From: Lachnospiraceae bacterium
GTDB lineage: Bacteria; Bacillota; Clostridia; Lachnospirales; Lachnospiraceae
Assembly (NCBI GenBank): GCA_024405115.1
Contig: JAKSPD010000020.1
Span: forward strand, 1 to 34,034
Length of the DNA stretch: 34,034 nt
Direction of reading: 5' to 3'
This document shows positions 6,634 to 32,289 of the stretch, one piece after another; position 1 is the first letter of the stretch, and every line of letters begins with the position of its first letter. The translations under genes and the position numbers were made by a program. The notes under the pieces were generated by a model. It was not told where the DNA came from, ran no database searches, and worked only from the letters and a program-made list of their open reading frames with translations.

Positions 6634-6674
6634 TGGGCTGTAAGACGTAAATAAAAGGAACAGATTCATTGATT

Positions 6675-6715
6675 AATACCCTCTTAACTATTAAGTCAGG
6701 AGGGTATTTTATTTT
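6675..6715 (+). terminator. ftsH terminator
   Basis: AATACCCTC and GAGGGTATT form a 9-bp stem around a 16-base loop that contains a further TTAA..TTAA pairing, followed by TTATTTT. It is well placed after ftsH. Confidence 0.85.
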
Positions 6716-6737
6716 GAGACAGGATGGAAACGGGGCA

Positions 6738-6765
6738 TTGATTTGTTTTTTTTTGGTGGTAAAAT
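6738..6765 (+). promoter_or_regulatory. promoter for aminotransferase gene
   Basis: TTGATT (6738-6743) and TAAAAT (6760-6765) lie 16 bases apart. The -10 context TAAAATGGC recurs at the binding-protein promoter near 10896, which could mean the two units share control (inference). Confidence 0.55.
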
Positions 6766-6890
6766 GGCGCTATGAGTAAAAAATGCGGCAACAGGAAACA
6801 GAGCATACTATTTCATATGAAAAAAGAAAAACCTCTGAGACTGAAAATGCCAGGGGATTTAAAATAAAATAAAATGGAGCAGATAAAAGA

Positions 6891-8105: not shown

Positions 8106-8142
8106 AAGGCGGCATTTATCCACTATCGCATAAGGAGATTTC

Positions 8143-10809
8143 ATGAGCATTACACAGGAAGGATTTGAGGTATTCCGTCGCGGTGCCTTTGGCAATGCGG
8201 GGGCCAATCTTTTTGTCGATGCCTCCGGCACGATAAGAAGGATTTCCGATCAGGACCTTAACGGCGACGGGAATTTCGACATTGTTTTCCCGAACAGCCA
8301 CGGATACATTGAAAGAGGACCGACAGCCATCTATAAATATGACGGTTCACAGTGGAACGGAACACTTCTTCCGCATGATTCCTGCTGGAAATCGTATTCA
8401 GTTGACATTGACGGCGACGGCTATCCGGACCTTCTGATTGCAAATGGGGAAAATGGCGTAACAAGTGACCTTACTTCATATATATACTGGGGCGGTCCGG
8501 ATGGACTTACCGGTGAAAGAACGGAGTTCAAAACTGAGGGCGCTTATTCAGCTTCCGCCATAGACCTTACCGGAAACGGTTTAAAAGATGTGGTTTTCTC
8601 AAGTGCATGGCATGACCACCATTACCCGGGTTTTGACTATGCGCAGAAGGTCTTCATTCAGGAAAGTCCGCACATCTTCCGCGAGGCAACTGAGGAGTAC
8701 GGCTTTATCCACAATACCATCATGAACGTGGCCAGTGCAGACCTTACCAATGAAGGCTATGATTCCCTCATCCTTGCCGGTTACAGATCCGCAAAGGATT
8801 CATGTTCAAAAATGTTCATTTACTACGGAGGGCCTTCCGGAATTGCAAAAAAACCGGTGGAGCTTCCGACTTACCTCTGTACCGGAATAAAGGTCTACGA
8901 TGTTTTCGGCACCGGCTATAATGACATAATCCTTACCGGCGGAAACAGGGTAATGATCTATAGAAACCGGAAGGGAAAGTTCTCTGGTGATGATGTTCTT
9001 ACCATTGACGTAAAGGGTGCAATGACCCAGTTCTTTTCCGGAAGTATCGGGTTTGACATCGCTGATCTCGATGATGACGGCATAAATGAGATCATCGTGG
9101 GAACTGCCCTTGGCATTGAGATACGAAAGGTATCCGACCCTGACACCGTATGGCAGAGCCTCGAGGGATTTTTCTGCAGCAGTGTCTGTGCCTGTGACCT
9201 TTTCAACACGGGAAAGAAGGAAATAGTTGCGTGTGTCTATAGCTCCGTTAAATCCTACGATACTGATTCCTTCATTCTTTTTAATAAGGATAATGTATAC
9301 TCGCTGGATAATGCACAGAGTTTTATCACACATGGTGCGGTAAGTGTGAATGTATCTGACATTGATAATGACGGCATGAATGAAATCATTGTCTGCAATA
9401 CGATGTCCGGCCCCAACCAGCGTGATCCGGAGTTCCCGGTTTACTGTTATTACGGATCTTCTGACCATATCTTCAGGGAAGAAAACAGGGTGGAATACCC
9501 GATCGATTCCGGTGCGTACTCGTATGTTTCCGCGGATATAGATAATGACGGTTATCCCGAACTGATTGCAACTACATGGAACGGGGCAAGGATCTTTAAG
9601 GGTACCGAAAACGGTCCTGACCCGAAAAATCATTATGACATAAAGGATCCGAAGCTGAGAATCCCGGGTGGCCTTATCGTAGCCGACCTTAACGGTAACG
9701 GCTGGCTTGACCTCATTCTTTCAACTTCTGCAAGAGCCGATACCGGGATGGATGCCGCAACGGTATTTTATGGCGGTCCTTCAGGATACTCAAATGACAG
9801 ATGCGAGCCCATACCGGCCGAACTTGGATGTGCTCAGGCACTTGTGCTCTGCGATATTGACGGGGACGGTTACCTTGATCTTGTCACAGGAGAGGGCGGA
9901 GGAAACATAAGCATCATTCACGGCTCAAAAGACGGCCTTAAGATAAATGAAAAGCCGGAACACTTTTCTGTCAAAAATGCGAATGGTGCGGAGCTTATAG
10001 GCGTGACCGCAGCTGATGTGGACGGTGACGGAAGGCTTGAAATCATTACCACGTCCTGCGGACATTATACAAGGCGTAAGAGCTATCTTAACATTTTGAA
10101 AAACTATGAGGAAGGCTTTCCTTTTTCAGAACAGGTTTCATTTGAAACCGGAGGTACGACGGGATACGTGTCTTTTGCTGATTTAAGACGCACGGGAAGT
10201 CTTGACCTGATCCTTCCGTTCTACTCAACTACAGAAACAAGGGTTCTTCCGATGAGAATCTTTAAAAACGACGGAAAAGGAAACTTCGATTTCAAAAACC
10301 CGCAGAAGATCCAGTGCGAGTCATCAATAGCAAGTCTTCTGGTGGATCTTGACAGAAACGGCTATCCGGATCTTCTCGTTTGCTGCCACCGTAATGACAT
10401 AGGGCATACCGTACAGTCAGTCCTTTTCCATAACGGACCGGAAGGATTTGATTTCGAAAATCCTCAGAAGCTGTGGGCGTACGGTCCGCATGATTTTACG
10501 AGAAACTGCATCTATAACATTGCTGACAGGACCGAAAGCGAGTATTACACATCGGAAGTGATTGCGGTTACAGATGTACCGAAGACCATGTCATGGGAAG
10601 CTGAATGTAAAAATGACACCGCCCTTTACATGAGGGTAAGGAGCGGAAAGGATGAGGAAAGTCTTCTTTCAGCTTCATTCGGGGAACCTCTTATTAACGG
10701 AGGGAAACTCGGGCTTCCAGAAGATACGGCATTCATCCAGTATGAGGCAGAATTCTTCTCGCCGAATGCCTGCGGCAGCCCTAAACTGCACAAGGTTAAG
10801 TTTGAATAA
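8143..10809 (+). CDS. FG-GAP/VCBS double-propeller protein A
   Basis: This 888-residue protein has 14 evenly spaced Dx(D/N)xxG-type loops, starting near residues 38, 88, 141, 200, 253, 308, 352, 406, 465, 515, 571, 625, 680 and 735. Their spacing of 44-59 residues suggests two seven-bladed propellers binding calcium (inference). Many repeats also show YWGGPxG-type turns (116-121, 228-233, 543-548). The last ~90 residues look like a beta-sandwich, following a GPHD...EYY segment (781-802) shared with protein B. No signal peptide, anchor or sorting motif is present, so it should be cytoplasmic. That is unusual, because FG-GAP proteins are mostly extracellular. No known catalytic motif is recognised and the function is unknown. 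Glycan binding or cleavage is inferred only from context. AAGGAG precedes the ATG. Confidence 0.85.
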   Translation: MSITQEGFEVFRRGAFGNAGANLFVDASGTIRRISDQDLNGDGNFDIVFPNSHGYIERGPTAIYKYDGSQWNGTLLPHDSCWKSYSVDIDGDGYPDLLIANGENGVTSDLTSYIYWGGPDGLTGERTEFKTEGAYSASAIDLTGNGLKDVVFSSAWHDHHYPGFDYAQKVFIQESPHIFREATEEYGFIHNTIMNVASADLTNEGYDSLILAGYRSAKDSCSKMFIYYGGPSGIAKKPVELPTYLCTGIKVYDVFGTGYNDIILTGGNRVMIYRNRKGKFSGDDVLTIDVKGAMTQFFSGSIGFDIADLDDDGINEIIVGTALGIEIRKVSDPDTVWQSLEGFFCSSVCACDLFNTGKKEIVACVYSSVKSYDTDSFILFNKDNVYSLDNAQSFITHGAVSVNVSDIDNDGMNEIIVCNTMSGPNQRDPEFPVYCYYGSSDHIFREENRVEYPIDSGAYSYVSADIDNDGYPELIATTWNGARIFKGTENGPDPKNHYDIKDPKLRIPGGLIVADLNGNGWLDLILSTSARADTGMDAATVFYGGPSGYSNDRCEPIPAELGCAQALVLCDIDGDGYLDLVTGEGGGNISIIHGSKDGLKINEKPEHFSVKNANGAELIGVTAADVDGDGRLEIITTSCGHYTRRKSYLNILKNYEEGFPFSEQVSFETGGTTGYVSFADLRRTGSLDLILPFYSTTETRVLPMRIFKNDGKGNFDFKNPQKIQCESSIASLLVDLDRNGYPDLLVCCHRNDIGHTVQSVLFHNGPEGFDFENPQKLWAYGPHDFTRNCIYNIADRTESEYYTSEVIAVTDVPKTMSWEAECKNDTALYMRVRSGKDEESLLSASFGEPLINGGKLGLPEDTAFIQYEAEFFSPNACGSPKLHKVKFE

Positions 10810-10826
10810 CCAAGACAGACAAAATC

Positions 10827-10848
10827 GTATTTATAAAAATACATTTTA
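10827..10848 (+). terminator. weak A/T hairpin after protein A
   Basis: GTATTT and AAATAC pair around ATAA and are followed by ATTTTAT. It is thin as a terminator, and some read-through from the protein A gene into the transporter genes seems possible. Confidence 0.3.
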
Positions 10849-10867
10849 TAGTTAAAATGACTATAAA
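10845..10867. promoter_or_regulatory. operator-like dyad before binding protein
   Basis: Perfect 8-base arms TTTATAGT and ACTATAAA are separated by 7 bases and end 5 bases before the -35 box of the next promoter. This position suits an activator or repressor site. No regulator gene lies beside it, so the cognate protein is unknown. Confidence 0.5.
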
Positions 10868-10872
10868 TAAAG

Positions 10873-10901
10873 TGGACTGGGGTTCGCTTTTATGCTAAAA
10901 T
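10873..10901 (+). promoter_or_regulatory. promoter for ABC transporter operon
   Basis: TGGACT (10873-10878), a 17-base spacer and TAAAAT (10896-10901), with an extended -10 TGC just before it, form a good sigma-A-like promoter. A strong ribosome binding site AAGGAGG follows at the gene start. Confidence 0.7.
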
Positions 10902-10949
10902 GGCAACTGTATCCAATTCCGTAAAGGATAAATATCAAGGAGGAAACTT

Positions 10950-12341
10950 ATGAAACGTTTTATGGCAGTTATGCTTGCTGCACTCATGGTAATCGGACTT
11001 GCAGCATGCAGTTCAACACCAGCAGCTACCACAGCGGCAGCTACACAGGCAGCTACCGAAGCAGCTAAAGACGAAGTTGTTACCATCAGATGGTACAACG
11101 GAGCTGACGTTGACGGCGGCTGTGCAGCAAGGATTGCAAAGTTTGAAGCTTCACATCCCAACATCAAGGTTGAGTTCGTTGAGTGCGACATCGACAACCA
11201 GATTGATGTAATCGTTGGTTCAGGTGAGGTTGTTGACCTTGTATATACCTATTCACAGAAGGTATATGAGAAGGCTATCAACGGCGGCGCTCTTCCTGTT
11301 AATGAGTACGCTGCAGCAGCAGGTGATGACCTTGTTAAGCTTTTCGGCGCCGGCGCTATGAACATGCTTAACTACGAAGGCAATTACTACGGAATTCCGT
11401 GGTCAAACAACACCTTCAAGGTATTCTACAACAAGACCATCATGGACCAGAAGGGTATCACAATTCCCGAAGTCTGGTCAATCGAAGAGTTCACAGAGAC
11501 AGCTAAGAAGCTCAATGATCCCGCTAACAACTTCTATGGTTGCGTATTCCCCTATGGCTGGGAGGATCTCTGCTTCGTAATGGCTCAGACATCAGGCTGG
11601 AGCTTCACAAAGAAGGATGCTGACGGAAACATCGTTCCCAATTTCGATGATCCGATCCTCAAGAAGAACATGGAATGGCTTTACAACCTTTCAGATCCCA
11701 ACGGCGCTAACGTAGCTCCTTCAATGGCTAAGATGACTTCAGAGTCAATGCACCGCCGTCAGGTTCTTGCTTCTCAGGGAACAGCCCTCATCATTGATGG
11801 CCCCTACACTTTAGTATGGCTTAACAACTACCAGTTCAACGATCCCGGCGAGGGAGCTCTTCCCTTCGAGCTTGGCGTAGCTGAACTTCCTTACGTAGAA
11901 GAAGCAGGTAATGGCGTTGCCTACATGGCACTTGTTGGTGCATTCTACATTCCCAAGACATCAGCTCATCCCCAGGAAGCTTATGAGTTCGCAAAGTTCA
12001 TGGAACTCGAGTGCACTGTTGAGGGATCAAACTACATGCCTGTAGCTCCCACAGCTGACATCAAGGGTGGTGCGTCTACTCTTACAACCTTCAAGGACAG
12101 CAACGGAAATAAGCATGAGAACATTTTCCCGATCGAAACAGCTGTTAAGGCCTGCACAACTGATCTCGTATCACATATCGAAAAGTTCAACTATGATCCC
12201 GGTATGGTTAAGTACGACACAGTTCTTACAGCACTCTTCTATGAGCAGTACTCACTGTTCTTCAACGGAGAGATGGACTTTGATTCATGGGCTGCTATGA
12301 TGAACGAACTCGGCACAGCTGAGCTTGCACAGGTACAGTAA
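10950..12341 (+). CDS. ABC sugar-binding lipoprotein
   Basis: This 463-residue protein is a family 1 type extracellular solute-binding protein that delivers a sugar or oligosaccharide to the two permeases downstream. A lipoprotein signal with lipobox LAAC puts the lipidated cysteine at residue 20. It is followed by an Ala/Thr-rich linker (about 21-40) and the two-lobed binding domain starting near VTIRWYNG. The ligand cannot be read from sequence. The codon choice (mostly AAC, TTC, GTT, GCT) and strong AAGGAGG suggest high expression. A perfect hairpin after the stop probably lets this gene be made in excess over the permeases. It opens the transporter operon. Confidence 0.93.
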   Translation: MKRFMAVMLAALMVIGLAACSSTPAATTAAATQAATEAAKDEVVTIRWYNGADVDGGCAARIAKFEASHPNIKVEFVECDIDNQIDVIVGSGEVVDLVYTYSQKVYEKAINGGALPVNEYAAAAGDDLVKLFGAGAMNMLNYEGNYYGIPWSNNTFKVFYNKTIMDQKGITIPEVWSIEEFTETAKKLNDPANNFYGCVFPYGWEDLCFVMAQTSGWSFTKKDADGNIVPNFDDPILKKNMEWLYNLSDPNGANVAPSMAKMTSESMHRRQVLASQGTALIIDGPYTLVWLNNYQFNDPGEGALPFELGVAELPYVEEAGNGVAYMALVGAFYIPKTSAHPQEAYEFAKFMELECTVEGSNYMPVAPTADIKGGASTLTTFKDSNGNKHENIFPIETAVKACTTDLVSHIEKFNYDPGMVKYDTVLTALFYEQYSLFFNGEMDFDSWAAMMNELGTAELAQVQ

Positions 12342-12370
12342 TCCATAGTCATAAAATCTGAAGGCTTATC

Positions 12371-12404
12371 GTGCCGGGCAGATTGCTCTGCCCGGCACTT
12401 TTAA
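12371..12404 (+). terminator. intercistronic hairpin, partial terminator
   Basis: A perfect 12-bp stem, GTGCCGGGCAGA against TCTGCCCGGCAC with a TTGC loop, is followed by TTTTAAAAA. Its position between binding protein and permeases fits partial termination or 3' end protection, giving more binding protein than permease. Confidence 0.85.
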
Positions 12405-12440
12405 AAAGAAACTTTCCTTTAAAAAGAAAGGATCCGTGTC

Positions 12441-13367
12441 ATGAAGACAAAGAAGAAAAAGACATTTAATGAAGTTGTGCATTCGAGGACTTTCCACGAT
12501 AACCTTACCGGTTATCTTCTTATAATGCCCAACCTCGTTGGTTTTACCGTATTCACTCTTTTCGGTATTATCTTTTCGCTTACAATGGCGTTTACCGACT
12601 GGAACATCATTAAAGGTTACGATGTAGCTAACTGGGTAGGAATCAAAAACTTTACCGACATGGTAGGTGACACTTACCTTAATGCCTGCATCAGGAACAA
12701 CCTTCTTTTACTTCTGGTTATTCCCGTTACCCTTTTCCTTGCAATGATCATTGCATCGGTACTCAATAACCTTGTTTACGGAAAGGCAGGAGCAAGAGCT
12801 CTTTACTTCCTTCCGTACGTAACCAACATCGTTGCGGTAGCAACAGTATGGCGTGCGCTTTTCCATAATACACAGGGCCCCATCAATATGTTCATTAAGG
12901 CTTTTGGTGTTGCTGAAGAGAATCTGCCCGGATGGCTTTCCAGCTCAGACTGGGCGCTTCCTGCCGTGATGATAGTACTTCTGTGGATGAACATCGGATA
13001 TGACATCCTCATGTATTCCGGTGCCATTGCAAACATTCCCAAAGAACTTTATGAAGCTGCCGAAATGGACGGAGCCAATACCGCCCAGCAGTTTTTTAAC
13101 ATAACAATCCCCCAGATCAAGCCCACCACCTTCCTTCTCATGATCCTTGGTATCATCGGATCACTGCAGATGTGGAGCTTCGTGCAGATCATTACAAAGG
13201 GCGGTCCCGGAACGGCTACATATACCATTGGACTTTACATCTATAAATGCTCGTTCCTGACACACAGAGACGGTTATGCGTGCGCACTGAGCTGGTTCCT
13301 TACAGCCATCATAATGGTTGTTACCGCCATCCGCTGGAAGACAGAAAGCACGTTTGATGCAGAATAA
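12441..13367 (+). CDS. ABC sugar permease, MalF/UgpA type
   Basis: This 308-residue inner-membrane component of a carbohydrate ABC importer has about six helices. The cytoplasmic EAA loop, which docks the ATPase, begins EAAEMDGA at residue 205 and ends with ITIPQIKP near 228. It would pair with the next gene's product to form the channel fed by the lipoprotein. No ATPase gene lies in the locus. In many Firmicutes such transporters use a shared MsmX-like ATPase encoded elsewhere (established for the type, inferred here). AAAGGA lies 8 bases upstream of the ATG. The Lys-rich start (KTKKKKT) is an expected cytosolic tail. Confidence 0.93.
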   Translation: MKTKKKKTFNEVVHSRTFHDNLTGYLLIMPNLVGFTVFTLFGIIFSLTMAFTDWNIIKGYDVANWVGIKNFTDMVGDTYLNACIRNNLLLLLVIPVTLFLAMIIASVLNNLVYGKAGARALYFLPYVTNIVAVATVWRALFHNTQGPINMFIKAFGVAEENLPGWLSSSDWALPAVMIVLLWMNIGYDILMYSGAIANIPKELYEAAEMDGANTAQQFFNITIPQIKPTTFLLMILGIIGSLQMWSFVQIITKGGPGTATYTIGLYIYKCSFLTHRDGYACALSWFLTAIIMVVTAIRWKTESTFDAE

Positions 13368-13379
13368 GGAGGTAATGAG

Positions 13380-14225
13380 ATGACTGGTTCACATAAGAAA
13401 AACATGATCATTACCAAAAGCATCATATCCGTTATCGTATGGTTTTTCGGTATTATCATGGTATTCCCGTTCTTATGGATGCTTTCGACATCCTTTAAGG
13501 GAATGAACTCTGTATTTACGTTCCCCATTGAGTGGATTCCCAGGAACCCCACACTTAAGGGCTATAAGGCGCTTTTTGACGGAACAGTACCCTATGTAAC
13601 ATATTTCTTAAATTCGGTTAAGGTTGCACTCATCGCAGCTGCAGGTACATTCTTCTCATGTACGATGGCAGGCTTCGGTTATGCAAAGGTAAGATTTAAA
13701 GGACGTGACGGACTGTTTGTTTTAAAGCTTGCTACCACAATGCTTCCAGGAACAGTACTTATCCTTCCCACATACATGATCTATTCAAGATTTGGTCTTA
13801 TCAATACTCATGCCGCACTGTGGCTTGGAAACTTCCTCGGAGGAACATTCGGTGTATTCCTTATGAGACAGGCTTTCATTTCACTTCCTGAATCAATGAT
13901 TGAGTCAGCCAAGATCGATGGAGCAGGGAACTTCAATATCTACTGGAACATCGCAATGCCAAACGTAAAGTCAAGTATTGCAACGCTTCTTTTCATGTAT
14001 TTTTTGTGGACATGGAATGATTATGAGAAACCCCTTCTGTATCTCTGGGATAAGGCAAAGTACACGCTTCCCATGGCTGTAAAGGCTTTCTCTGATACAC
14101 AGTATCAGAATTACCCGGCCATCATGGCATCTAACGTACTTATGTTACTGCCTGTAATGATTGCCTTTGTAACCTGCCAGAATTTCTTTGTGGAATCACT
14201 TATCGGTTCTTCGGTAAAGGGTTGA
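13380..14225 (+). CDS. ABC sugar permease, MalG/UgpE type
   Basis: This 281-residue second permease has six predicted helices and an EAA-type loop starting ESAKIDGAGNF at 175 and ending IAMP near 194. It pairs with the preceding MalF-like subunit. The gene starts 12 bases after that stop with AAGGAGGT as the ribosome binding site, so the two are translationally close. Substrate is unassigned. The next gene, for a sialidase-fold protein, starts 3 bases after this stop, which ties the transporter directly to the cytoplasmic propeller proteins. Confidence 0.93.
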   Translation: MTGSHKKNMIITKSIISVIVWFFGIIMVFPFLWMLSTSFKGMNSVFTFPIEWIPRNPTLKGYKALFDGTVPYVTYFLNSVKVALIAAAGTFFSCTMAGFGYAKVRFKGRDGLFVLKLATTMLPGTVLILPTYMIYSRFGLINTHAALWLGNFLGGTFGVFLMRQAFISLPESMIESAKIDGAGNFNIYWNIAMPNVKSSIATLLFMYFLWTWNDYEKPLLYLWDKAKYTLPMAVKAFSDTQYQNYPAIMASNVLMLLPVMIAFVTCQNFFVESLIGSSVKG

Positions 14226-14228
14226 TAT

Positions 14229-15350
14229 ATGCTTAAAATAATAGGACACGAAACAATCTACAGGGATGAGGAGTACTGCACATTCCCTAATCTGGCGAAA
14301 TTTCCGGATGGCACAGTTGTCTGTGCCTTTCGTCATGCTAAGGAGCGTCAGAAACAGTACGGTGCCGTAACACACGTTGACCCCACCGCTAAGGATGTTT
14401 ACATTACATCCCCGGACGGCGGAATTACCTTTGGTAAGGAACTCTATCTCATCATCAACGACGGAATGAGTGACCAGGATCCGTGCCTCAACGTTCTTTC
14501 TGACGGAAGGATCATTGCGACATATTTCCGCTGGGAGCTTGTCCGGAAGGGAAAAGGCTTCGCCAGATGGGGTGAACCCTTCGTGCGTTTTGGACGTACT
14601 CTCCACGATAAGCTTGACTGCTTCGGATACGGGGCTTCAATGAGCATCTCCGATGATAACGGAAAAAACTGGGACCACATGCCTCCCATCGTTGTGGACG
14701 GCTGGGATTCAAAGGGTGCCGTAAGAGGAAACATCACGGAACTTCCCGACGGAACACTTCTCCTTCCTTTCTACGGTTCAAAGAAGATGGGCGAGCTTTC
14801 AAGGTCGGTACTTCTAAAGTCCACTGACAGGGGCGAGACATGGGAAGAACTTTCAGTGATGGCTTTTGACCCTGAGTGCAAAAAGAACTACCTTGAGCCT
14901 AATCTTTACCGTACTGAAAGCGGAAGACTTGTGGGTCTTTACAGGACGCAGACGGACTGGACCTTGCCAGGAGCTGACTTTGAGGAAACATACCTTAATC
15001 TTCATATTTCCGTATCGGATGATGACGGAAAGACATTCGGACCAGTACAGGAGATTGAAAATTGCTGGTGCTCTTCACCGGCACATGCGCTCCGCTTAAG
15101 AAGCGGAAATGTTCTTCTTACCTACGGTTACCGTGTTGAGCCGTTTGGAATCCGCTGCCGTGTGGTTAATCCCGAGCTTACAGACATTTCGGAGGCTCGC
15201 GAAATCATCCTTCGTGACGATGCCCCCAACGGGGACCTTGGTTATCCATGCTCACTGCAGCTTGATAACGGAGACATCATCGTCGCATACTATATTTCAG
15301 CACAGGACGGAATCAGAACAATAGACATTACACGTCTCAGGGAGGAATGA
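14229..15350 (+). CDS. sialidase-fold (Asp-box) protein 1
   Basis: This 373-residue soluble protein has four Asp-box motifs (S-x-D-x-G-x-T-[WF] type) at 61-68, 141-148, 198-205 and 263-270, the mark of a six-bladed sialidase-like propeller. There is no signal peptide, so it should act in the cytoplasm. The N-terminal [FY]RIP motif that supplies an arginine in true GH33 sialidases is not seen. At the equivalent place the sequence reads CTFPNLAKFPDG (17-28). A real sialidase is therefore doubtful, and another glycosidase, lyase or binding role is possible. It follows the second permease by 3 bases and overlaps the YesL-like gene. Automated pipelines may call it exo-alpha-sialidase. Confidence 0.85.
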   Translation: MLKIIGHETIYRDEEYCTFPNLAKFPDGTVVCAFRHAKERQKQYGAVTHVDPTAKDVYITSPDGGITFGKELYLIINDGMSDQDPCLNVLSDGRIIATYFRWELVRKGKGFARWGEPFVRFGRTLHDKLDCFGYGASMSISDDNGKNWDHMPPIVVDGWDSKGAVRGNITELPDGTLLLPFYGSKKMGELSRSVLLKSTDRGETWEELSVMAFDPECKKNYLEPNLYRTESGRLVGLYRTQTDWTLPGADFEETYLNLHISVSDDDGKTFGPVQEIENCWCSSPAHALRLRSGNVLLTYGYRVEPFGIRCRVVNPELTDISEAREIILRDDAPNGDLGYPCSLQLDNGDIIVAYYISAQDGIRTIDITRLREE

Positions 15351-16033: not shown

Positions 16034-16034
16034 A

Positions 16035-17156
16035 ATGTCAAAGTATTCTCTCGAACTTATTGAGCAGCACGTTGCCTGCGAAGGACACTATTATCCGGAA
16101 ACCGCTTACTTCAGCCCGGATGCACAGACCATTATCTTTTCGGTAAGGAATCCTTCTAAGGAACCCAAGGATCACTGCATCTTTACTTCTCATGACGGAG
16201 GTAAGACCTTCGAAAAGAGCTTCGATGACTTTTTCCGCTTCACAACGCTTAAAGACGGTACCGCATGGACGGCCATTGGCGGTAATTTTGTTTTCGACAG
16301 GTTCCGCCGCACGCAGTTCCCCATTCCGTATATCGGAAAGGTGGTAACCGCCCAAAGCCCTGAAGAAATGTTAAAGGGAAATTACAATGAGGACTTTGCC
16401 AAAGTAAAGATTCCGGACCTTGCAGTGGGATATGGCGACGGAAACAATGCCCACTCGGGTTCATTTGACCACGGCATAGTTGAGCTTCCAAACGGGGACA
16501 TCCTCTGCACGATGTACGGCCAGTTCAGGCAGGATAAAAACAGGGTGCCTTACATACCGGGAGAGTATTACCAGTACCGCTCATGGATAGCAGTCACACA
16601 TGACAGGGGACAGAGCTTTGAGTATCTTTCGACCCTTGCCGACGCAAATACGTGGCCTCTTCCGGAATATGCTGAGGGCTACTGCGAGCCGGATCTTATA
16701 ATGCTGGAGGACGGTTCTCTTTTCTCAGTAATGCGTTCGGGCGGATTCTACGAGGGAGAGGATAACTGCTATACACCTCTTTACGGCGTGCGTTCAACTG
16801 ACGACGGAAAGACATGGTCACAGCCTGTTGCAATCAACCGGCATGGAGTATATCCGAAGGCAGTGCAGGTAAAAAACGGCGGAATCGTCGTAACGGCAGG
16901 ACGTGACGGACAGTTTATTTCCGTAGGTTCAGAGGACGGCACATGGTGGTCAGAACCCATGTACATGACTGAAAATAAAGGTACCTGGGGACAGGTTCCG
17001 TCAGGCTACGGCTCACTTGCAGTCACAGGTGAGAACGAAGTAACCCTTATTTATGATGACGGATGCGAGGAGTGGTACAAGGGTTATGAGAATCCTGAAA
17101 AGGGTTCACACCATAAGGTATTCATCGCACGTTTCAAAGTCATAAAGAATGACTGA
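16035..17156 (+). CDS. sialidase-fold (Asp-box) protein 2
   Basis: This 373-residue protein has the same length as Asp-box protein 1 but is clearly diverged from it. Asp boxes lie at 52-59 (SHDGGKTF), 188-195 (THDRGQSF) and 254-261 (STDDGKTW), with a degenerate one near 299-305. Segments such as YCEPDLIMLEDGSLFSVMR (216-234) and the DHGIVELPNGDIL strand (145-157) are typical of the sialidase propeller fold. There is no signal peptide. It may be a cytoplasmic glycosidase or lyase on imported oligosaccharide, but no specific activity can be assigned. The start is one base after the YesL-like stop with AAGGAA upstream. The next gene is 115 bases away. Confidence 0.83.
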   Translation: MSKYSLELIEQHVACEGHYYPETAYFSPDAQTIIFSVRNPSKEPKDHCIFTSHDGGKTFEKSFDDFFRFTTLKDGTAWTAIGGNFVFDRFRRTQFPIPYIGKVVTAQSPEEMLKGNYNEDFAKVKIPDLAVGYGDGNNAHSGSFDHGIVELPNGDILCTMYGQFRQDKNRVPYIPGEYYQYRSWIAVTHDRGQSFEYLSTLADANTWPLPEYAEGYCEPDLIMLEDGSLFSVMRSGGFYEGEDNCYTPLYGVRSTDDGKTWSQPVAINRHGVYPKAVQVKNGGIVVTAGRDGQFISVGSEDGTWWSEPMYMTENKGTWGQVPSGYGSLAVTGENEVTLIYDDGCEEWYKGYENPEKGSHHKVFIARFKVIKND

Positions 17157-17215
17157 TGGCATGAATTCATATGGTTTACATAAATCAAAAATTCCCGGCT
17201 TATGGCATCGGAGGT

Positions 17216-17236
17216 TGACATAACTGCAGACAGTTA
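17216..17236. promoter_or_regulatory. dyad upstream of barrel protein gene
   Basis: A TTGACA at 17216-17221 overlaps a perfect dyad TAACTG-CAGA-CAGTTA (17221-17236). No good -10 box follows at normal spacing, so this could be a regulator site or chance. Confidence 0.25.
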
Positions 17237-17271
17237 AAACAGTCAGGGTGTTACCCGAAAGGAAATGCATC

Positions 17272-19080
17272 ATGGAAGAATTAAGAAAAGAAGTTATAGT
17301 AAGTGATCTGGGAGGTCTCTGTGAGCCCCGGCTTAACATATCTCCCTACAGGGAGTATAACAGATGGGCATCAGTACCCTATGAGACAGCTGAAATAAAG
17401 GGAAGCGCCCTTGTGGCAATGCGTGATAACCACCCTAGGGACGTGTCATTTGATCCGCAATTAAAGGGATGGTATAAGATATTCATCGGAATGCTTGCCT
17501 TCTGTGAGTCGGAAAACAACTGCGTTAATGTAAAGCTCTCATCTGCTCCAGCATTCATGCACTGCACTCCCTGCACAGTAGGATATGCCGCACATGCAAT
17601 TCAGGAAGTTTACCTTATAAGTGCCGACATGACTGGTGAAAAGTTCGTGATCGGAAAGGCAAAGGGCGGCTCTCCTTCTGATGCAATGATCTCATGGGTA
17701 CGTTTTGTTCCGATGAGCGATGAGGAGGTTGAGGCATTTAAGGCTGATCAGGCTGAAACAAAGAATAAGCGCCTTTATGCCACAAACGACATGCACGGAA
17801 TGCACGGGCTTTATTATCCAACGACCCCAAAAGAGTGGCATGACCTTGTAGAGGACTATTCACAATCTGACGTTGAGTGGCTTTCAGTGGAGAACGTAAT
17901 GCTTTTTGACGGACAGGTAATTACCGAAAACGAGCAGAACTTCGTTTATCCCAGATACGGCGACATGCTCTGCAACATGGGAATAAGACGTCACTTTACA
18001 TATGAGATGCTTAACGACCTTGTGAAGTTTGGACATGAAAAGGGTCTTAAGATGTGCTGTTCAAGAAGAATGGGCGCATGGGGAATGGAATTCCCGTATG
18101 ACCAGATGTATTTCACGAACACTTTCCGCGAGGAGCATCCGGAGCTTCGCTGCGTTGACAGGGACGGCGTTCCGGTAGAGGCAATCTCATACATGTATCC
18201 CGAAACAAGAAAGTACGTCATCGACATGTTCGTAAAGTCAGCCATGCAGGGATTTGATGCCGTTGAGATGATCTTTACAAGAGGTGTTCCCTACATTCTC
18301 TTCGAGCAGCCGTTTGTTGATGCATTCATTAAGGAATACGGCGAGGATCCTCGCGAGCTTCCCATTGATGATGAAAAGGTTATCGCACTTAAGTGCCGTT
18401 TCATGACTGACTTTGTAAGGGAGCTTCGTGCTGCCCTTGATGAGGCTTGCGGAAAGAATAAGACAGCCATCCATGCACGCTGCCATTTCACAATGTATGA
18501 TTCAAGGCTTTTAGGAGAGGATCTCCTTACATGGGCCAAGGAAGGACTTATCTCCGCAGTCATCTCTTATCCGCAGAGAATAAGGGAAGTGCTTGATGAG
18601 ACAGTATGGAAGGACGATGACAGAAAGCATATCGATATAGGGAAATATCATAACTACTATATCAACAGTGATAAGCTTACCGTATACCGCCGTCAGGACT
18701 TTGAGTTCATGCCTCCGATGGAAGATTCAAGGGGAATCCCGCAGGGACCCGCAGACCAGGATGCGCGTGTAAAGGAATTCATGGAGCTTGAAAAGTACGG
18801 CACAACTGTTTATCTTGAGATCATGCCCCGTTTCATGAGCCCCGATGAGTACAAGAGACGTGCGCTTGACCTTTATAATTCAGGCTGCTCACACATAAGC
18901 TTCTGGGATACATACGGAAGAGTCTGCAACAGGATGGAGTGGAGCATGGTAAGAAGACTGGGCCATATGGATGAGTTAAAGGACTTCACAAACGGTGAGG
19001 GAGAGTATTACAGAAATGTAAGGCTTCTTAGCATCGCAGGTGATGACGTATCCAGATACATTCCCGCGTGGGGCGGCTGA
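17272..19080 (+). CDS. probable glycosidase-like TIM-barrel protein
   Basis: This 602-residue cytoplasmic protein has no signal peptide. The first ~150 residues look like a beta-rich domain (VYLISADMTGEKFVIGKA and neighbours). Residues ~165-570 alternate strands and helices like a TIM barrel of the GHL/GH10-like glycosidase clan. Supporting stretches are VEWLSVENVMLF (201-212), GLKMCCSRRMGAWG (258-271), AVEMIFTRGVPY (330-341), TAIHARCHF (398-406) and SHISFWDTYGR (540-550). Glutamates E207 and E332 lie at strand ends and could be catalytic (guess). I do not recognise an exact family. I chose ATG 17272, which follows AAGGAAA. A GTG at 17248 would add 8 residues. It likely works on the same imported glycan as its neighbours. 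Confidence 0.75.
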   Translation: MEELRKEVIVSDLGGLCEPRLNISPYREYNRWASVPYETAEIKGSALVAMRDNHPRDVSFDPQLKGWYKIFIGMLAFCESENNCVNVKLSSAPAFMHCTPCTVGYAAHAIQEVYLISADMTGEKFVIGKAKGGSPSDAMISWVRFVPMSDEEVEAFKADQAETKNKRLYATNDMHGMHGLYYPTTPKEWHDLVEDYSQSDVEWLSVENVMLFDGQVITENEQNFVYPRYGDMLCNMGIRRHFTYEMLNDLVKFGHEKGLKMCCSRRMGAWGMEFPYDQMYFTNTFREEHPELRCVDRDGVPVEAISYMYPETRKYVIDMFVKSAMQGFDAVEMIFTRGVPYILFEQPFVDAFIKEYGEDPRELPIDDEKVIALKCRFMTDFVRELRAALDEACGKNKTAIHARCHFTMYDSRLLGEDLLTWAKEGLISAVISYPQRIREVLDETVWKDDDRKHIDIGKYHNYYINSDKLTVYRRQDFEFMPPMEDSRGIPQGPADQDARVKEFMELEKYGTTVYLEIMPRFMSPDEYKRRALDLYNSGCSHISFWDTYGRVCNRMEWSMVRRLGHMDELKDFTNGEGEYYRNVRLLSIAGDDVSRYIPAWGG

Positions 19081-19113
19081 TTTAAAAACATTTAACATTA
19101 TCAGAAGGATTGA

Positions 19114-19145
19114 CGGGCCGTGGCAGCATGCGACGGCCCGGTTTA
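19114..19145 (+). terminator. hairpin between barrel and isomerase genes
   Basis: CGGGCCGT and ACGGCCCG form a perfect 8-bp stem around 11 bases and are followed by GTTT. It may attenuate transcription into the isomerase gene or protect the upstream message. Confidence 0.5.
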
Positions 19146-19162
19146 CAGGTGTGGAGGAACAT

Positions 19163-20011
19163 ATGAAATTAGCAGTAGAGACCGGTGCCGTTTTCAGACA
19201 CTACAGTATAGATGACGGCGCAAGGCTCATAAAAGAGACCGGATTTGATGCGGCAGACATGAGCTTCTGCGATGATTCCACGGAAGTCTTCTGTATGGAA
19301 GATTACAGGGAAAAGGCGTATGAGGTTAAGGCGGCGTTTGAAAAATACGGTCTGGCATGCAGCCAGGCACATGCTCCTTACTTTTTTAAGTATGACAGCC
19401 CACAGGATGATTCGGATTTCCAGTACCTTGCCATAAAGAGAAGTATTGAGGCGGCAGGAATAATGGGAGTGGACCACATAGTGCTTCACGGGGTACGTGT
19501 GCCGTATCCGAGCGCATCCAGAAATAACCTTGATTTCAACTATGGTTTTTTAAAGGGATTTGAGCCCCTGTGCGAAAAGTATAACGTTAAGATCTCACTT
19601 GAAAACCTTTCAGGTGCGTTTACATATCCGGACCTTCTGAACGCAATGATTGGGAGACTGGATTCACCGTGGTACACAGGCCTTGTGGACATCGGCCATG
19701 CCTTCTGCCGCGGCGGACTCCAGCCGGGAGACTTCATCCGCCAGCTTGACCCCGGCATCCTTACGGGACTTCATGTACAGGATACCCACGGGATAGACGA
19801 CGAACATATGCTTCCCTACATGGGAAACATTGACTTTGATGACCTTATGCACGCACTTTACGAAACAGGCTACAAGGGCGACTTCACCTTTGAGGCATGC
19901 GCTTATCTGACATATTACGGGGCTAAAGGACTTCTGGAGCCTGCATTAAGGTTTGAGGCTGCTATCGGAAGAAAGCTGATTGGTGACTTTGAAAAAATAT
20001 CCGAAGAATAA
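19163..20011 (+). CDS. sugar isomerase/epimerase, TIM barrel
   Basis: This 282-residue protein belongs to the xylose isomerase-like (AP endonuclease 2) barrel family, whose members isomerise, epimerise or dehydrate small sugars with a divalent metal. Likely metal ligands are E147 (ISLENL), D176 (GLVDIGH), H204 (LHVQDTHG) and E244 (FTFEACAY). H109 (IVLHG) and the QAHAPY stretch also line the usual site. The sugar is unknown. The ATG at 19163 has GGAGGAAC directly before it. An upstream in-frame start at 19040 would overlap the preceding gene and lacks support. As the last gene on this strand before a convergent gene, it fits conversion of the released monosaccharide for entry into central metabolism. 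Confidence 0.85.
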   Translation: MKLAVETGAVFRHYSIDDGARLIKETGFDAADMSFCDDSTEVFCMEDYREKAYEVKAAFEKYGLACSQAHAPYFFKYDSPQDDSDFQYLAIKRSIEAAGIMGVDHIVLHGVRVPYPSASRNNLDFNYGFLKGFEPLCEKYNVKISLENLSGAFTYPDLLNAMIGRLDSPWYTGLVDIGHAFCRGGLQPGDFIRQLDPGILTGLHVQDTHGIDDEHMLPYMGNIDFDDLMHALYETGYKGDFTFEACAYLTYYGAKGLLEPALRFEAAIGRKLIGDFEKISEE

Positions 20012-20043
20012 GGCAGCAAAGGAGAGTCTTTAAACGGGATTTA

Positions 20044-20607
20044 TTATTCATCGGTCTGGATGAATTTAAGAAGATACGCGGAGTTTTCCGCTCCCGCGCG
20101 TTCTGTAAAGTAGATGTAGTAAAGAGGGCTGATGCCCGCATTACCTGCAAGATGACCCAAGGCAGTGTCACTTATATCGGTGGTGCTTACAAGGCCGCCT
20201 GATTCTGAAAGAAGCTCTGCGGTCTTCCGGTCACCCAATATAAGGTCAATGTCCCCGGCTGCGATGTAGGAGCTCAGCTCTATAGATGAAAACATGTTTT
20301 CTGATTCATCCGGGGAGGAAAACGTGCGCTTTATGGGAGCGTATTTTCCGGATGCATCGGGGAAGGCACGGCTTAACGTATCGTTTATGCCGTCCCCGCA
20401 GTGCATTTCAAGTTCGTTCAGGATACCTGCCCTTACAACGGGTTCGAGCTGCTTATTATTAACAACCTGCGAAATGGTGGAGATAATAAAATAAAGGGCC
20501 ACCGCTATTCCTATGGTGGCTGGCAGGTAGTACATTATTACATAGTCCGTGGCTGCTTTTCTGTCCATGGACTTTATTTTTTTTATTTCGTCCTTAACCT
20601 TGATCAT
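20044..20607 (-). CDS. single-pass membrane protein, unknown
   Basis: This 187-residue protein is not recognised. A short basic N-terminus (MIKVKDEIKKIKSMDRK) precedes one helix at about 24-46, and the rest (47-187) should lie outside the cell. The external part contains AAGDIDLILGD (116-126) and GGLVSTTDISD, a pattern like a fragment of a periplasmic binding fold (weak inference). ATG 20607 follows GAGGTG. An earlier in-frame start at 20649 has no ribosome binding site. It is transcribed against the sugar locus and toward the isomerase gene, from a candidate promoter that overlaps the one for FG-GAP protein B. Possible roles are sensor, transporter accessory or anchor. Confidence 0.7.
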   Translation of the reverse strand: MIKVKDEIKKIKSMDRKAATDYVIMYYLPATIGIAVALYFIISTISQVVNNKQLEPVVRAGILNELEMHCGDGINDTLSRAFPDASGKYAPIKRTFSSPDESENMFSSIELSSYIAAGDIDLILGDRKTAELLSESGGLVSTTDISDTALGHLAGNAGISPLYYIYFTERAGAENSAYLLKFIQTDE

Positions 20608-20626
20608 ATGCACCTCGTTAAGCATT

Positions 20627-20655
20627 ATTGTAACACATTTGATAATCATTTGAAA
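20627..20655 (-). promoter_or_regulatory. minus-strand promoter of membrane gene
   Basis: Read on the minus strand, TTTCAA (20655-20650) and TACAAT (20632-20627) are 17 bases apart, placing a start about 20 bases upstream of the ATG at 20607. The -35 hexamer is the same DNA as the plus-strand -35 box of the next gene. Confidence 0.5.
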
Positions 20656-20679
20656 CTTTATGTGGTTTTGAAGTATAAT
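20650..20679 (+). promoter_or_regulatory. promoter for FG-GAP protein B gene
   Basis: TTGAAA (20650-20655), an 18-base spacer and a perfect TATAAT (20674-20679) form a good promoter. A dyad TATGC-TTTT-GCATA at 20689-20702 covers the expected start of the transcript and could be an operator. Confidence 0.7.
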
Positions 20680-20725
20680 AACCTAAAGTATGCTTTTGCA
20701 TAGTCGGTTTTAAGGGGTAGAAAAA

Positions 20726-23437
20726 ATGAGTAAGTGGATATTAAGCGGATTTGATGAAATTTCAAAAGGAACATTTGAAAACGGCGGTCAGAACTTATAT
20801 GTATCAAAAAAGGGCGTGCTTCAGAGGATATGGCAGTATGATCTCAATAAGGACGGCTATGTAGACCTTCTTATTGCAAACAGCCACGGCTACAACGAGC
20901 ATCCGTATCTTTACATTTACGATGATCCTGCAGGTGAAGCTGTGCTTAACGAGGTGCTTACCCAGGGCGCACAGGCTGCGGCCTGCGCGGATATAAACGG
21001 AAACGGATATGATGACCTCATCATCGGGGTTACGCATGACGGACAGCATTCGGACCTTCCGTCATATGTGTATTTCGGAGGTTTCGACGGAATTACCGAA
21101 AACAGGAAGATAGACCTTGCGGCTCCGGCGTGTTTTTCATGCGGAATCGGTGATGTAAACGGCGACGGTAAACGTGAAATCCTGTATCTCATTGCTGACG
21201 GCATCGACGAGGCAAGTGCCGTACACTTAAGCAGCTTCCGTGTCCGTGTTTACTCACAGGAGGATACGGGCTTTAGAATGAACGGCTTTAAGGATTACCC
21301 CATGGAAGCAGCGTGGTTCTCCGTATGTGACGTTGACGGTGACGGAATCGATGACCTTTACTGCCGTATGCGTGACGGAAGCTGGAAGGTATATTTCGGC
21401 TCACCGGAAGGCTTTTCTGAGGAAAACTCCATAGTTCTTTCAGGGGACACAAAGGATAAGGAACGCTTTGACCATATCGAAGGCGGTGGGGGAAATGCTA
21501 TATATAACGAGTTTGCCCGCTCAAAGCAGGTAACTGTAAGAGGTGAAAGATACCTTTTCCTTTCAGATGGGGATGGAGCGCATTTTATTCACTTTACAGG
21601 AAGAAAGCCTGACGAAAAGTGCTTTGTAATCAATGAAAAGAACGTTATATCGGCGGCAGCCGGAAGCATTTATGATAAAGATGGCAGTGACATTGTGCTG
21701 TTAAGAAGCATCAGCATTACGGATGAGAAGGTGCTTATCTATAAAGGCGCGCTCGGATACGAAAAGCCCTTTGAGGAAAGAAATATGCTTACCCCGAGGG
21801 AAGTCATATGCTGTGACTTTTCGGGTTCGGGGCTCATGGACATTGCCGTGGCCCAGGGACGTGACACCAAAAAGCATTCGACGGAGTCGCTCCTTTTTGT
21901 AACGGATGAAAACGGACATGTTTCAGAGGAACCAAAACGCTTTAAGACACATAATTGTGTAGACGTTCTGGCCGGTGATTTTAAGAACGAGGGTAAAAAG
22001 AGCCTTGTATTCGTAAACCAGCAGCAGTCCGAAAGCTACGGCGATGTTCCGGTTTACGTATATCTTGGTTCAAAGGACGGATTCAGTCCGGACAGGAGAC
22101 TTGAATTCCAGGGACATTCTGCAGGCAGCATGATCTCAGCTGACTTTACCGATAACGGCTGGGCTGACCTTCTCATCCTGCAGAACGCGGAGGACCGTCC
22201 GTGGCTTGAGCCGCCGGCGGATCTCTACCTTAACGGGCCGAACGGTTTCAGTACCGAAAGGAAAGCAGAGATAAAGGCACCGCTTTCATGGGGTGGCCAT
22301 GCGGCAGACCTCAATAAGGATGGATACCTTGATCTTATCACATGCGGAAAGGACCTCATGATTCATTACGGCGGACCGGATGGATTCAGTGATGAAAACG
22401 TGGTAATCCTTAATCCCGGTAATGACCTTCCGAAGGGCTCCGCGATTGGTGCATTGTGGCCGGCTCTTGCGGATCTTAACGGAAACGGCTGGCTTGACCT
22501 TGTTGTCCCGCTTTCATGGCAGCCCTATTCGCTGATTTACTGGGGAGGCCCGGAGGGCTTTTCTGACGAAAGACGGACAAAGATCCCTGTTGACGATGCC
22601 CTTACGGTACGTGTTGCGGACCTTAATAAAAACGGATACCCGGACCTCATATTCGGTTCAAGGGCAAGCTACTACAGAAACATTTACCAGGAAGGCTCCG
22701 TTACGATATTCTGGGGCGGTCCTCAGGGGTATTCAGGCTACAACTGCTGCGTGCTTCCGTCATACCAGTCAAACAACATCACTATAGCTGACTTTAATAA
22801 TGACGGTTACCTTGACATCTTCGCATCCTCTTACTTCAATAAGAAGGAGCGTGACATAAACTCATATCTTTACTGGAATGACCACGGTCATTTCTCACTC
22901 ACGAACAGAAAGCGTTTCTTCGCCCATTCATCTTCAGCCGCATGGGCAGGAGACTTTAATGAGGATGGATACGTGGATCTCTGCCTTACGCACCACCGTG
23001 CGTACGGAAGCCATGTTGCAGAATCGGCCATCTGGTGGAACGGACCTGAAGGATTTAAGGAAGAAAACCGTACCTGGCTTCCCACGATAGGGCCGCACGA
23101 CATGGTTCCGAACGACATGGGCAATGTCATGACAAGAGGCCCTGAGGAGTATTACATTACACCGGTTGGGACGGCAGAGGACATAAAGAGTGTTTCATGG
23201 ACTTCGGAGCTTCCGGTAAAGACATGGGTGAACTGCCAGATTAAAACGGCTTCTTCGGAAGAGGAGCTTTCAAAGGCGGCATTTATCGGTAAAGATGGTA
23301 CGGGGAATACAAGGTTTGAATGCGGTGAGGAAATCCCCGCAGAGTTTATAAAAGGAAAATATTTTAAGATTAAGCTGTACCTTGGGGCAGTTAACTCAGG
23401 CGGCACTCCGAGATTAACGGAGATTCGTGTGGACTAA
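20726..23437 (+). CDS. FG-GAP/VCBS double-propeller protein B
   Basis: This 903-residue paralogue of protein A has the same opening pattern (GF[DE]...G.F.N.G.NL.V...RI...DLN.DG...NSHGY). Repeat loops start near residues 39, 89, 143, 202, 316, 364, 418, 473, 528, 583, 632, 689 and 743. A degenerate one near 280 brings the likely total to 14, again two seven-bladed propellers. [YF]WGGPxG[FY]S turns are clear at 605-612 and 662-670. The GPHD...GPEEYY segment (789-810) and a terminal beta-sandwich ending TPRLTEIRVD match protein A. There is no signal peptide, so a cytoplasmic location is predicted. The function is unknown. It has its own promoter, and its stop codon abuts the mutS2 start. Confidence 0.85.
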   Translation: MSKWILSGFDEISKGTFENGGQNLYVSKKGVLQRIWQYDLNKDGYVDLLIANSHGYNEHPYLYIYDDPAGEAVLNEVLTQGAQAAACADINGNGYDDLIIGVTHDGQHSDLPSYVYFGGFDGITENRKIDLAAPACFSCGIGDVNGDGKREILYLIADGIDEASAVHLSSFRVRVYSQEDTGFRMNGFKDYPMEAAWFSVCDVDGDGIDDLYCRMRDGSWKVYFGSPEGFSEENSIVLSGDTKDKERFDHIEGGGGNAIYNEFARSKQVTVRGERYLFLSDGDGAHFIHFTGRKPDEKCFVINEKNVISAAAGSIYDKDGSDIVLLRSISITDEKVLIYKGALGYEKPFEERNMLTPREVICCDFSGSGLMDIAVAQGRDTKKHSTESLLFVTDENGHVSEEPKRFKTHNCVDVLAGDFKNEGKKSLVFVNQQQSESYGDVPVYVYLGSKDGFSPDRRLEFQGHSAGSMISADFTDNGWADLLILQNAEDRPWLEPPADLYLNGPNGFSTERKAEIKAPLSWGGHAADLNKDGYLDLITCGKDLMIHYGGPDGFSDENVVILNPGNDLPKGSAIGALWPALADLNGNGWLDLVVPLSWQPYSLIYWGGPEGFSDERRTKIPVDDALTVRVADLNKNGYPDLIFGSRASYYRNIYQEGSVTIFWGGPQGYSGYNCCVLPSYQSNNITIADFNNDGYLDIFASSYFNKKERDINSYLYWNDHGHFSLTNRKRFFAHSSSAAWAGDFNEDGYVDLCLTHHRAYGSHVAESAIWWNGPEGFKEENRTWLPTIGPHDMVPNDMGNVMTRGPEEYYITPVGTAEDIKSVSWTSELPVKTWVNCQIKTASSEEELSKAAFIGKDGTGNTRFECGEEIPAEFIKGKYFKIKLYLGAVNSGGTPRLTEIRVD

Positions 23438-32220: not shown

Positions 32221-32255
32221 AAACGGCGAAAGCGCCCAAAAATAAAGCGTTTTGT

Positions 32256-32268: not shown

Positions 32269-32289
32269 TATAGAAAAGAGGTATGCCAC

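Follow-up and report, generated by a model that had tools for sequence, protein, structure and literature searches.

In Gram-positive bacteria, glycans are usually imported first and then processed in the cytosol. The yes operon of Bacillus subtilis, which serves pectin fragments processed inside the cell, combines a DUF624 protein (YesL) with a solute-binding protein (SBP) and two permeases. A locus that shares the DUF624-type protein, the SBP and the two permeases with this operon, but differs from it in its enzyme families, lies on contig C13 of a Lachnospiraceae bacterium (JAKSPD010000020.1; the whole stretch of 34,034 nucleotides is called the window). The draft genome comprises 1.97 Mb in 65 contigs and is 78.5% complete. 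The locus encodes two FG-GAP proteins of about 900 residues, FG1 and FG2, referred to here as giants. Bacterial nan loci, for instance that of R. gnavus, are outlined as an ATP-binding cassette (ABC) importer with a sialidase, followed by cytosolic steps (PMC7535918).

We favour, with a probability of roughly 55%, the reading that the window carries a horizontally acquired accessory locus for glycan catabolism in the cytosol, whose giants constitute a novel family of propeller enzymes. An oligosaccharide, probably with an acidic sugar, would enter through the lipoprotein and two permeases, with an ATPase from elsewhere and the DUF624-like protein as a helper. Its cytosolic trimming would fall to BNR1, BNR2 and the GHL10-related X610, and isomerisation or epimerisation of a released sugar to the AP_endonuc_2 protein. 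The giants are most likely enzymes rather than mere scaffolds, with a site on one of two propellers (B). Their preferred chemistry would be elimination or dehydration on an acidic sugar, giving a 2-keto-3-deoxy acid for DHDPS or HpcH aldolases where these are present, and two deep giant subfamilies, represented by FG1 and FG2, may serve two linkages.

An earlier note on this DNA was right in outline, in that the locus is importer-linked, cytosolic and propeller-rich, but the locus is mosaic and probably acquired rather than conserved. The inventory given there (importer, two Asp-box propeller proteins, two FG-GAP giants, a barrel protein and a sugar isomerase, here an AP_endonuc_2 protein) agrees with the open reading frames (ORFs) and Pfam matches; the DUF624-like membrane protein at 15347-16033 had gone unnamed. 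The real interest of the locus is the double-propeller family with its conserved site. The natural left edge lies after ftsH (6633), so that the PatB-like aminotransferase falls inside. The features, in order from ftsH to mutS2, are:

6634..23437, no strand: ftsH-mutS2 interval, gene order compared with same-genus loci
6891..8105, plus strand: PatB-like class I/II aminotransferase (Pfam), 37 bp before FG1
8143..10809, plus strand: FG1, FG-GAP giant of 888 amino acids (aa) without a hydrophobic N-terminus (FG-GAP_3, 168 bits)
10950..12341, plus strand: SBP, extracellular solute-binding lipoprotein (SBP_bac_1, Pfam)
12441..13367, plus strand: ABC permease 1 (Pfam, NCBIfam)
13380..14225, plus strand: ABC permease 2 (Pfam, NCBIfam)
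14229..15350, plus strand: BNR1, Asp-box propeller protein without a hydrophobic N-terminus (BNR_2, 65.4 bits, above cut-off)
15347..16033, plus strand: DUF624/MusI-like membrane protein (both models below cut-off), overlapping BNR1 by 4 bp
16035..17156, plus strand: BNR2, Asp-box propeller protein without a hydrophobic N-terminus (BNR 31.1 bits against a cut-off of 27; BNR_2 31.1 against 31.4, borderline)
17272..19080, plus strand: X610 from its best start (602 aa, Shine-Dalgarno); ORF open from GTG 17248 (610 aa)
19163..20011, plus strand: AP_endonuc_2 protein, a xylose-isomerase-like TIM barrel (100 bits), from its best start (282 aa, Shine-Dalgarno); ORF open from 19040
20044..20649, minus strand: 201-aa ORF between AP_endonuc_2 and FG2, membrane-type by eye, without a Pfam match
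20650..20679, plus strand: promoter-like site TTGAAA-18-TATAAT upstream of FG2 (11/12 consensus match only)
20726..23437, plus strand: FG2, FG-GAP giant of 903 aa (FG-GAP_3, 140 bits)
22832..23098, plus strand: FG2 codons 703-791 with invariant Y703, R709, H757, H763, S767 and H791, and S735 (23/24), from the giant alignment

The giants and their putative active site

The predicted structure of FG2 has a pLDDT (predicted local distance difference test) of 87.5 and a pTM (predicted template modelling score) of 0.82, and contains the strands of 14 blades. Its fold matches in the Protein Data Bank (PDB) fall mainly into two groups, one covering residues 69-436 and the other about 37-775 with only ~290-330 residues aligned. 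Judged by the first and last residues of these matches, a propeller A (69-436) is apparently inserted after the first blade of a propeller B (24-68 and 437-794), both seven-bladed. A C-terminal beta domain of ~97 residues (807-903) follows in the model. Up to six propellers had been claimed for the locus; two are seen in the FG2 model, and the counts for FG1, BNR1 and BNR2 come from homology. Foldseek ranked a match of the whole model to DDB1 first, which was rejected as a tandem-propeller artefact (TM score about 0.2, root-mean-square deviation about 24-35).

Conservation was assessed on 24 aligned giants, leaving out L056 and L065 (incomplete), L071 and L072 (distant) and L154; giants share about 23-40% identity with FG1/FG2. 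Mean conservation is highest in blades 13 and 14. At most one exception was found at 52 positions, of which 11 are polar and non-aspartate; the conserved aspartates mostly belong to calcium-type motifs. N23, Y703 and R709 are kept in 24/24 giants, H757, H763, S767 and H791 in all 23 that reach them (L069 is cut short), and Y25 and S735 in 23/24. In the model, these nine of the 11 residues lie on three neighbouring blades of propeller B (13, 14 and 1). The DSSP strands place Y703, R709, H757 and H763 at the edges of BC loops, S735 and H791 at DA junctions and S767 in strand C, so the conserved residues would mostly occupy one face. Because nine conserved polar residues fall on three neighbouring blades, the model suggests that the outer propeller B carries a family-wide site, which we regard as a putative active site.

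Some observations weigh against such a site. Y810 and S812, kept in 22/23 giants (FG2 has Thr at 812) and so equally conserved, lie outside it at the beginning of the C-terminal domain. The closeness of the conserved residues is read from model secondary structure and blade order. The top fold match of the FG2 model, aldos-2-ulose dehydratase (AUDH), falls on propeller A, ~1 Z unit above LGI1, and the conserved site is on propeller B. In addition, FG-GAP propellers are often non-catalytic binding modules. The giants could likewise be lectins or scaffolds that bind carbohydrate or protein, holding a sugar or organising enzymes, with the conserved residues forming a ligand site. VCBS/FG-GAP propellers are noted to include fungal PVL lectins and integrins (PMC8023676), and the FG2 model matches the folds of integrins, LGI1 and CRTAC1 closely, within about 3 Z units of AUDH. 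However, the invariance of three His, a Tyr and an Arg (23 or 24/24) among proteins with about 23-40% identity to FG1/FG2 is more typical of catalysis, and the family moves between the cytosol and the exported space. A binding role is considered unlikely, and the giants are regarded here as most likely enzymes.

At least 21 loci (L050-L070) have giant matches spanning at least 749 query residues, in a profile scan of named genomes that kept at least 80 loci and gives a lower bound. Among the matches listed, giants occur in Latescibacterota, Planctomycetota, Chloroflexota, Armatimonadota, Bacillota, Verrucomicrobiota, Lentisphaerota, Kiritimatiellota, Bacteroidota, Acidobacteriota and Aminicenantes, and a few are unplaced. 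The Bacillota carriers are Paenibacillus, Cohnella and yak-cecum Clostridia. The branching of the giant tree departs from taxonomy. FG1 groups with L063, from an uncultured bacterium (support 100/100), and FG2 lies in a clade of 17 rows: a hydrophobic N-terminus is absent from 14 and present in two (L058, L064), and one (L154) lies outside that comparison. Since FG1 and FG2 fall apart in the tree, the locus holds two anciently separate giant subfamilies.

The soluble locus proteins, which the earlier note took to lack signal peptides, have a 12-residue Kyte-Doolittle N-terminal maximum of 0.31-1.07, against 2.87 for the SBP, and are read as cytosolic because no strongly hydrophobic N-terminus is present. 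Among the 24 giants, 16 are likewise without one (maximum up to 1.10), and eight have it (at least 2.38; L058, L062, L064, L066-L070). The signal-less members extend beyond Gram-positives to Latescibacterota, Planctomycetota and Lentisphaerota, among others. The clean split of N-termini suggests that a giant acts wherever its soluble substrate is. The proposal of import with wholly cytosolic processing fits the single importer and its cytosolic soluble partners, but a cytosolic location is not fixed in the giant family (8/24 have a signal-peptide-like start). The giant ORF of a Kiritimatiellae locus (L058:9434-12760) carries ~200 extra N-terminal residues after the signal-like stretch, glyoxalase/VOC-like by eye.

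Partners of the giants in other genomes

In distant genomes the giants repeatedly have importers, BNR proteins and pyruvate-type aldolases as neighbours, and in one species also relatives of X610. The count covers 25 giant loci (the window, C34, L022, L050-L070 and L154), and the Pfam scan covered part of their neighbours; the window and L154 were found via partner families and are non-independent. An importer (ABC, SSF or SusCD) is near the giant in 11/25 (window, C34, L051, L052, L059, L060, L061, L063, L066, L067, L154), a BNR_2 gene in 7/25 (window, C34, L056, L059, L066, L067, L069) and a DHDPS or HpcH aldolase in 7/25 (C34, L022, L052, L059, L060, L062, L066). At least one of the three is present in 15/25.

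Enrichment was measured with seeds restricted to the window and C34; the controls were 57 generic FG-GAP loci of the same scan, and L154, which was found through its X610 match, was left out. Any partner family is present in 10/21 giant loci and 9/57 controls (p 0.006; with L154 11/22, p 0.003), a BNR partner in 4/21 and 1/57 (p 0.017) and an importer in 6/21 and 5/57 (p 0.036). These p values are uncorrected for several tests, and the giant loci hold less DNA (331 kb with L154) than the controls (925 kb). A version with seeds drawn partly from the giant loci themselves was circular and was dropped.

On contig C34 the same genome holds a second giant locus. Besides two further giants it encodes DHDPS proteins, one protein each of the BNR_2 and Amidohydro_2 families and, by eye, Dpp-type importers. 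Four of its DHDPS genes (L013, L014) are without internal stops, two of them almost identical and ~24 kb apart, and a fifth match is interrupted. A 153-aa ORF there resembles a BNR gene start by eye and lies near a BNR match with an internal stop, which suggests a decayed copy. The closest echo of the window is in Paenibacillus eucommiae (L059), with an importer, a giant, an X610 homologue and a BNR_2 protein bearing SLH domains; the exact gene set occurs in none of the loci examined. The neighbours of the second giant of this species (L154) are an SBP, a DegT aminotransferase and an Amidohydro_2 protein. At L050:12702-13595, a streptomycin-adenylyltransferase-like gene (Adenyl_transf) immediately follows a Latescibacterota giant.

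Several results count against the favoured reading. No importer, BNR or aldolase was found in 10/25 giant loci (L050, L053, L054, L055, L057, L058, L064, L065, L068, L070), of which L055, L065 and L068 are contigs below 5 kb. Without L154, an X610 partner is not enriched (1/21 against 0/57, p 0.27), nor is DHDPS alone (2/22 against 2/57, p 0.31). Matches to AP_endonuc_2 and PatB beside other giants number 0/22, no aldolase is among the scanned window proteins, and FG2 is not clearly part of the operon.

One possible substrate is a sialic-acid-type (nonulosonic) glycan, on which a sialidase-like BNR protein would act together with giants working on sialylated or keto-deoxy-acid sugars. The giant of the Bacteroidia locus L066 does sit in a sialic-acid-type setting. 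It is accompanied by DHDPS, BNR_2, SDR and Gfo/Idh proteins, a GlcNAc 2-epimerase and a cyclically permuted mutarotase fused to a sodium symporter (the latter two domains above cut-off), so that lyase, epimerase, mutarotase, transporter and sialidase-like gene stand together as in nan loci, with the lyase below the NCBIfam cut-off. The best NCBIfam match of this DHDPS protein is N-acetylneuraminate lyase (153 bits, below the cut-off of 281), and the upstream regulator is NanR-like (86 bits, below 260). BNR_2 proteins also stand at L067 (BNR_2, 149 bits), beside the giant, a SusC-like protein and SusD, and at L069 (just above cut-off), and C34 combines DHDPS with BNR_2. In contrast, the window's own genome, 78.5% complete, gave no NanE match, which weakened sialic acid as the window substrate, and neither a DHDPS nor a NanE or Gfo/Idh protein is among the scanned window proteins. 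Nine DHDPS matches were found in that genome, all on contigs other than C13; one contains an internal stop and the other eight are free of them. The two C34 DHDPS proteins tested score best as dapA, below cut-off. The Bacteroidota giants moreover form a separate deep clade. A sialic acid pathway in the window is considered rather improbable; the context of the giant family hints at an acidic or keto-deoxy sugar, short of proving sialic acid.

The importer, its companions and the origin of the locus

The importer is of the carbohydrate type (CUT1), with an SBP lipoprotein and two permeases in one operon. SBP_bac_1 scores 75.1 bits and the permeases (BPD_transp_1) 59.9 and 51.2 bits, all above the Pfam cut-off; the SBP start is lipoprotein-like by eye, and its nearest PDB sequence is 4r9f (MBP1; E 5.7e-20). 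No ATPase gene was found among the proteins scanned between 6891 and 23437, and a shared ABC ATPase is usual in Gram-positives. The membrane protein at 15347-16033 scores 23.4 bits for DUF624, just below the cut-off of 24.2, and 36.7 bits for the MusI family, far below 160; it is a possible importer accessory.

The earlier note saw no match of the propeller proteins to a known enzyme by visible motif. BNR1 aligns with a solved but uncharacterised protein (PDB 5hx0, E 2.6e-40), and the giants remain the unusual part. BNR1 is an Asp-box propeller of the BNR_2 family and BNR2 a borderline one, with a weak likeness to sialidases (E 2e-5). The designation of the AP_endonuc_2 protein as a sugar isomerase was too specific, as its best NCBIfam matches are epimerases far below cut-off.

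X610 (610 aa) has no Pfam or NCBIfam match at E 0.1 and no PDB-sequence match at E 1. Its relatives occur in 10/20 giant-bearing genomes, and 23 positions are invariant in 14 sequences, including D181, D208, R274, Y315, R345, D425 and D554; by these sequences it is a real protein family. A two-sequence AlphaFold model is poor (pLDDT 44), with alternating strands and helices compatible with a barrel, and X610 probably consists of an N-terminal beta domain and a barrel in this low-confidence model. The second giant of P. eucommiae has as its neighbour a 1901-aa protein that combines a signal-like start, SLH domains and, at 877-1376, an X610 region. A GHL10 match at 1150-1273, within that region, reaches 25.2 bits against a cut-off of 27.9, and through this one sub-threshold match in a relative the X610 family may be related to GHL10. 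In two Caldilineaceae loci (L149, checked; L150, by eye), a Dpp-type importer and a DHDPS-family gene lie between two X610 genes, with a sulfatase adjoining. Yak-cecum Clostridia (G727; L145, L146) have tandem X610 gene pairs 40-42% identical to the window X610, beside which no importer, giant or other locus family was matched.

The ftsH-mutS2 stretch is probably inserted, as ftsH and mutS2 adjoin in 7/20 same-genus loci. MutS2 is present in 25/25 genus genomes searched, the own genome included, a few with only a fragment or distant match; 20 of 30 mutS2 loci were examined. In the seven, ftsH lies directly upstream on the same strand, six with less than about 320 bp between the aligned parts and one with about 1.1 kb. 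One further locus (L173) has ftsH near mutS2 but rearranged, and the remaining 12 show no ftsH match within the up to 1.5 kb covered. Nine locus proteins compared with the 20 loci gave no match above 60 bits. From this we infer that the direction would be insertion here rather than loss elsewhere. An insertion sequence (IS)-type transposase (DUF772 and DDE) lies at window 32254-33888, ~9 kb past the locus edge.

Conservation of the gene set in related genomes, whose absence the earlier note had named as a refutation, was not found, which speaks against its claim as far as close relatives are concerned. X610 is absent from all 60 other genomes searched, including 24 members of the same genus, and BNR1 is present in 2/298 at E 1e-10. 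Full-length giants occur in 0/294 other genomes of the order (two have partial matches) and in 1/397 other genomes of the phylum (26 more have partial matches only), absences that may be overstated, since these searches score few candidates per genome and recovered the four giants of the own genome as three (order) and two (phylum).

The spacing of permease 1, permease 2, BNR1, DUF624 and BNR2 (12, 3, -4 and 1 bp) makes one transcription unit likely. The SBP, X610 and AP_endonuc_2 genes are 82-115 bp from their neighbours (SBP to permease 1, 99 bp; BNR2 to X610, 115 bp; X610 to AP_endonuc_2, 82 bp, from the best starts), and FG1 is 140 bp from SBP. FG2 begins 714 bp past AP_endonuc_2, with the minus-strand ORF between, and ends 0 bp before mutS2; it may be separate from the operon, with its own promoter-like site. 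Spacing favours joint action of the core genes and is less telling for FG2. We infer that all six families may act on one substrate.

Unrelated carbohydrate genes could also have piled up by chance at one insertion spot. The gene set unmatched among the loci examined, the 714 bp and minus-strand ORF before FG2 and the 10/25 giant loci without partner families would fit such an assembly, which is nevertheless the least probable of the alternatives: the near-zero spacing of permeases, BNR1, DUF624 and BNR2, the joint presence of importer, giant and X610 in Paenibacillus (L059), the partner enrichment (p 0.006) and the giants at two places in the own genome, both beside importer genes, all speak against it.

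Comparison with known enzymes and loci

The general plan, import and then breakdown in the cytosol, is known, but the main candidate enzymes here come from families for which no assigned activity was found. By title or abstract start, no paper on FG-GAP giants in glycan loci was among the matches listed in the open-licence PMC literature. The giants, which occur in many phyla, are soluble, ~900 residues long and share one strictly conserved site, may represent a new enzyme family and point to a glycan without a linked pathway, both of which can be tested. A broader proposal, less likely than not, is offered tentatively: that they are a new carbohydrate-active family, with one seven-bladed propeller inserted in another and a Tyr/Arg/tri-His site on the outer one, cytosolic in Gram-positives and several other phyla and exported in others, and that, together with their X610 and BNR partners, they give access to a glycan pathway without an assigned enzyme family, perhaps one for keto-deoxy or uronic acid sugars.

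With bacterial nan loci, the window shares an importer and sialidase-like genes, and the giant of L066 sits in a nan-type locus, but the scanned window proteins include no aldolase, NanE or Gfo/Idh protein. GH33 sialidases and BNR_2 proteins are likewise Asp-box propellers, although BNR1 and BNR2 have no hydrophobic N-terminus and BNR2 is only weakly sialidase-like. The likeness to GHL10 (glycosyl hydrolase-like 10) runs through one exported X610 relative, below cut-off, and X610 itself matches neither GHL10 nor any other Pfam family. PL11 rhamnogalacturonan lyase (RGL11) has been connected to a VCBS propeller core (PMC8023676); membership of the giants in PL11 was rejected on score, FG1 having a weak RGL11_C match (E 0.034, 13.4 bits against a cut-off of 27) and FG2 none.

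AUDH (PDB 4a7y/4a7z/4a7k) is a sugar dehydratase, and FG2 shares its VCBS seven-bladed propeller. The AUDH structure has cupin domains after the propeller. No cupin match was found in FG1 or FG2 by Pfam scan; FG2 instead consists of two propellers and the ~97-residue C-terminal beta domain, with the best match on A and the conserved site on B. The PL25/PL24 ulvan lyases are described as seven-bladed propeller lyases with His, Tyr and Arg in an upper-face cleft (PMC13193363). Unlike the giants, which are FG-GAP doubles, PL25 consists of one secreted propeller whose sequence is of the BNR type, and no PL25/PL24 lyase appears when the giants are matched to PDB sequences. FG2 nevertheless shares the seven-bladed propeller in its model, and the giants keep the same kinds of residue invariant: Y703, R709, H757 and H763 edge BC loops and H791 sits at a DA junction, all on adjacent blades, a clustering read from secondary structure and blade order only. 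Because PL25 lyases rely on His, Tyr and Arg in a cleft of this kind and AUDH is the top fold match, we propose by analogy, with modest confidence, that the giants may be eliminases or dehydratases.

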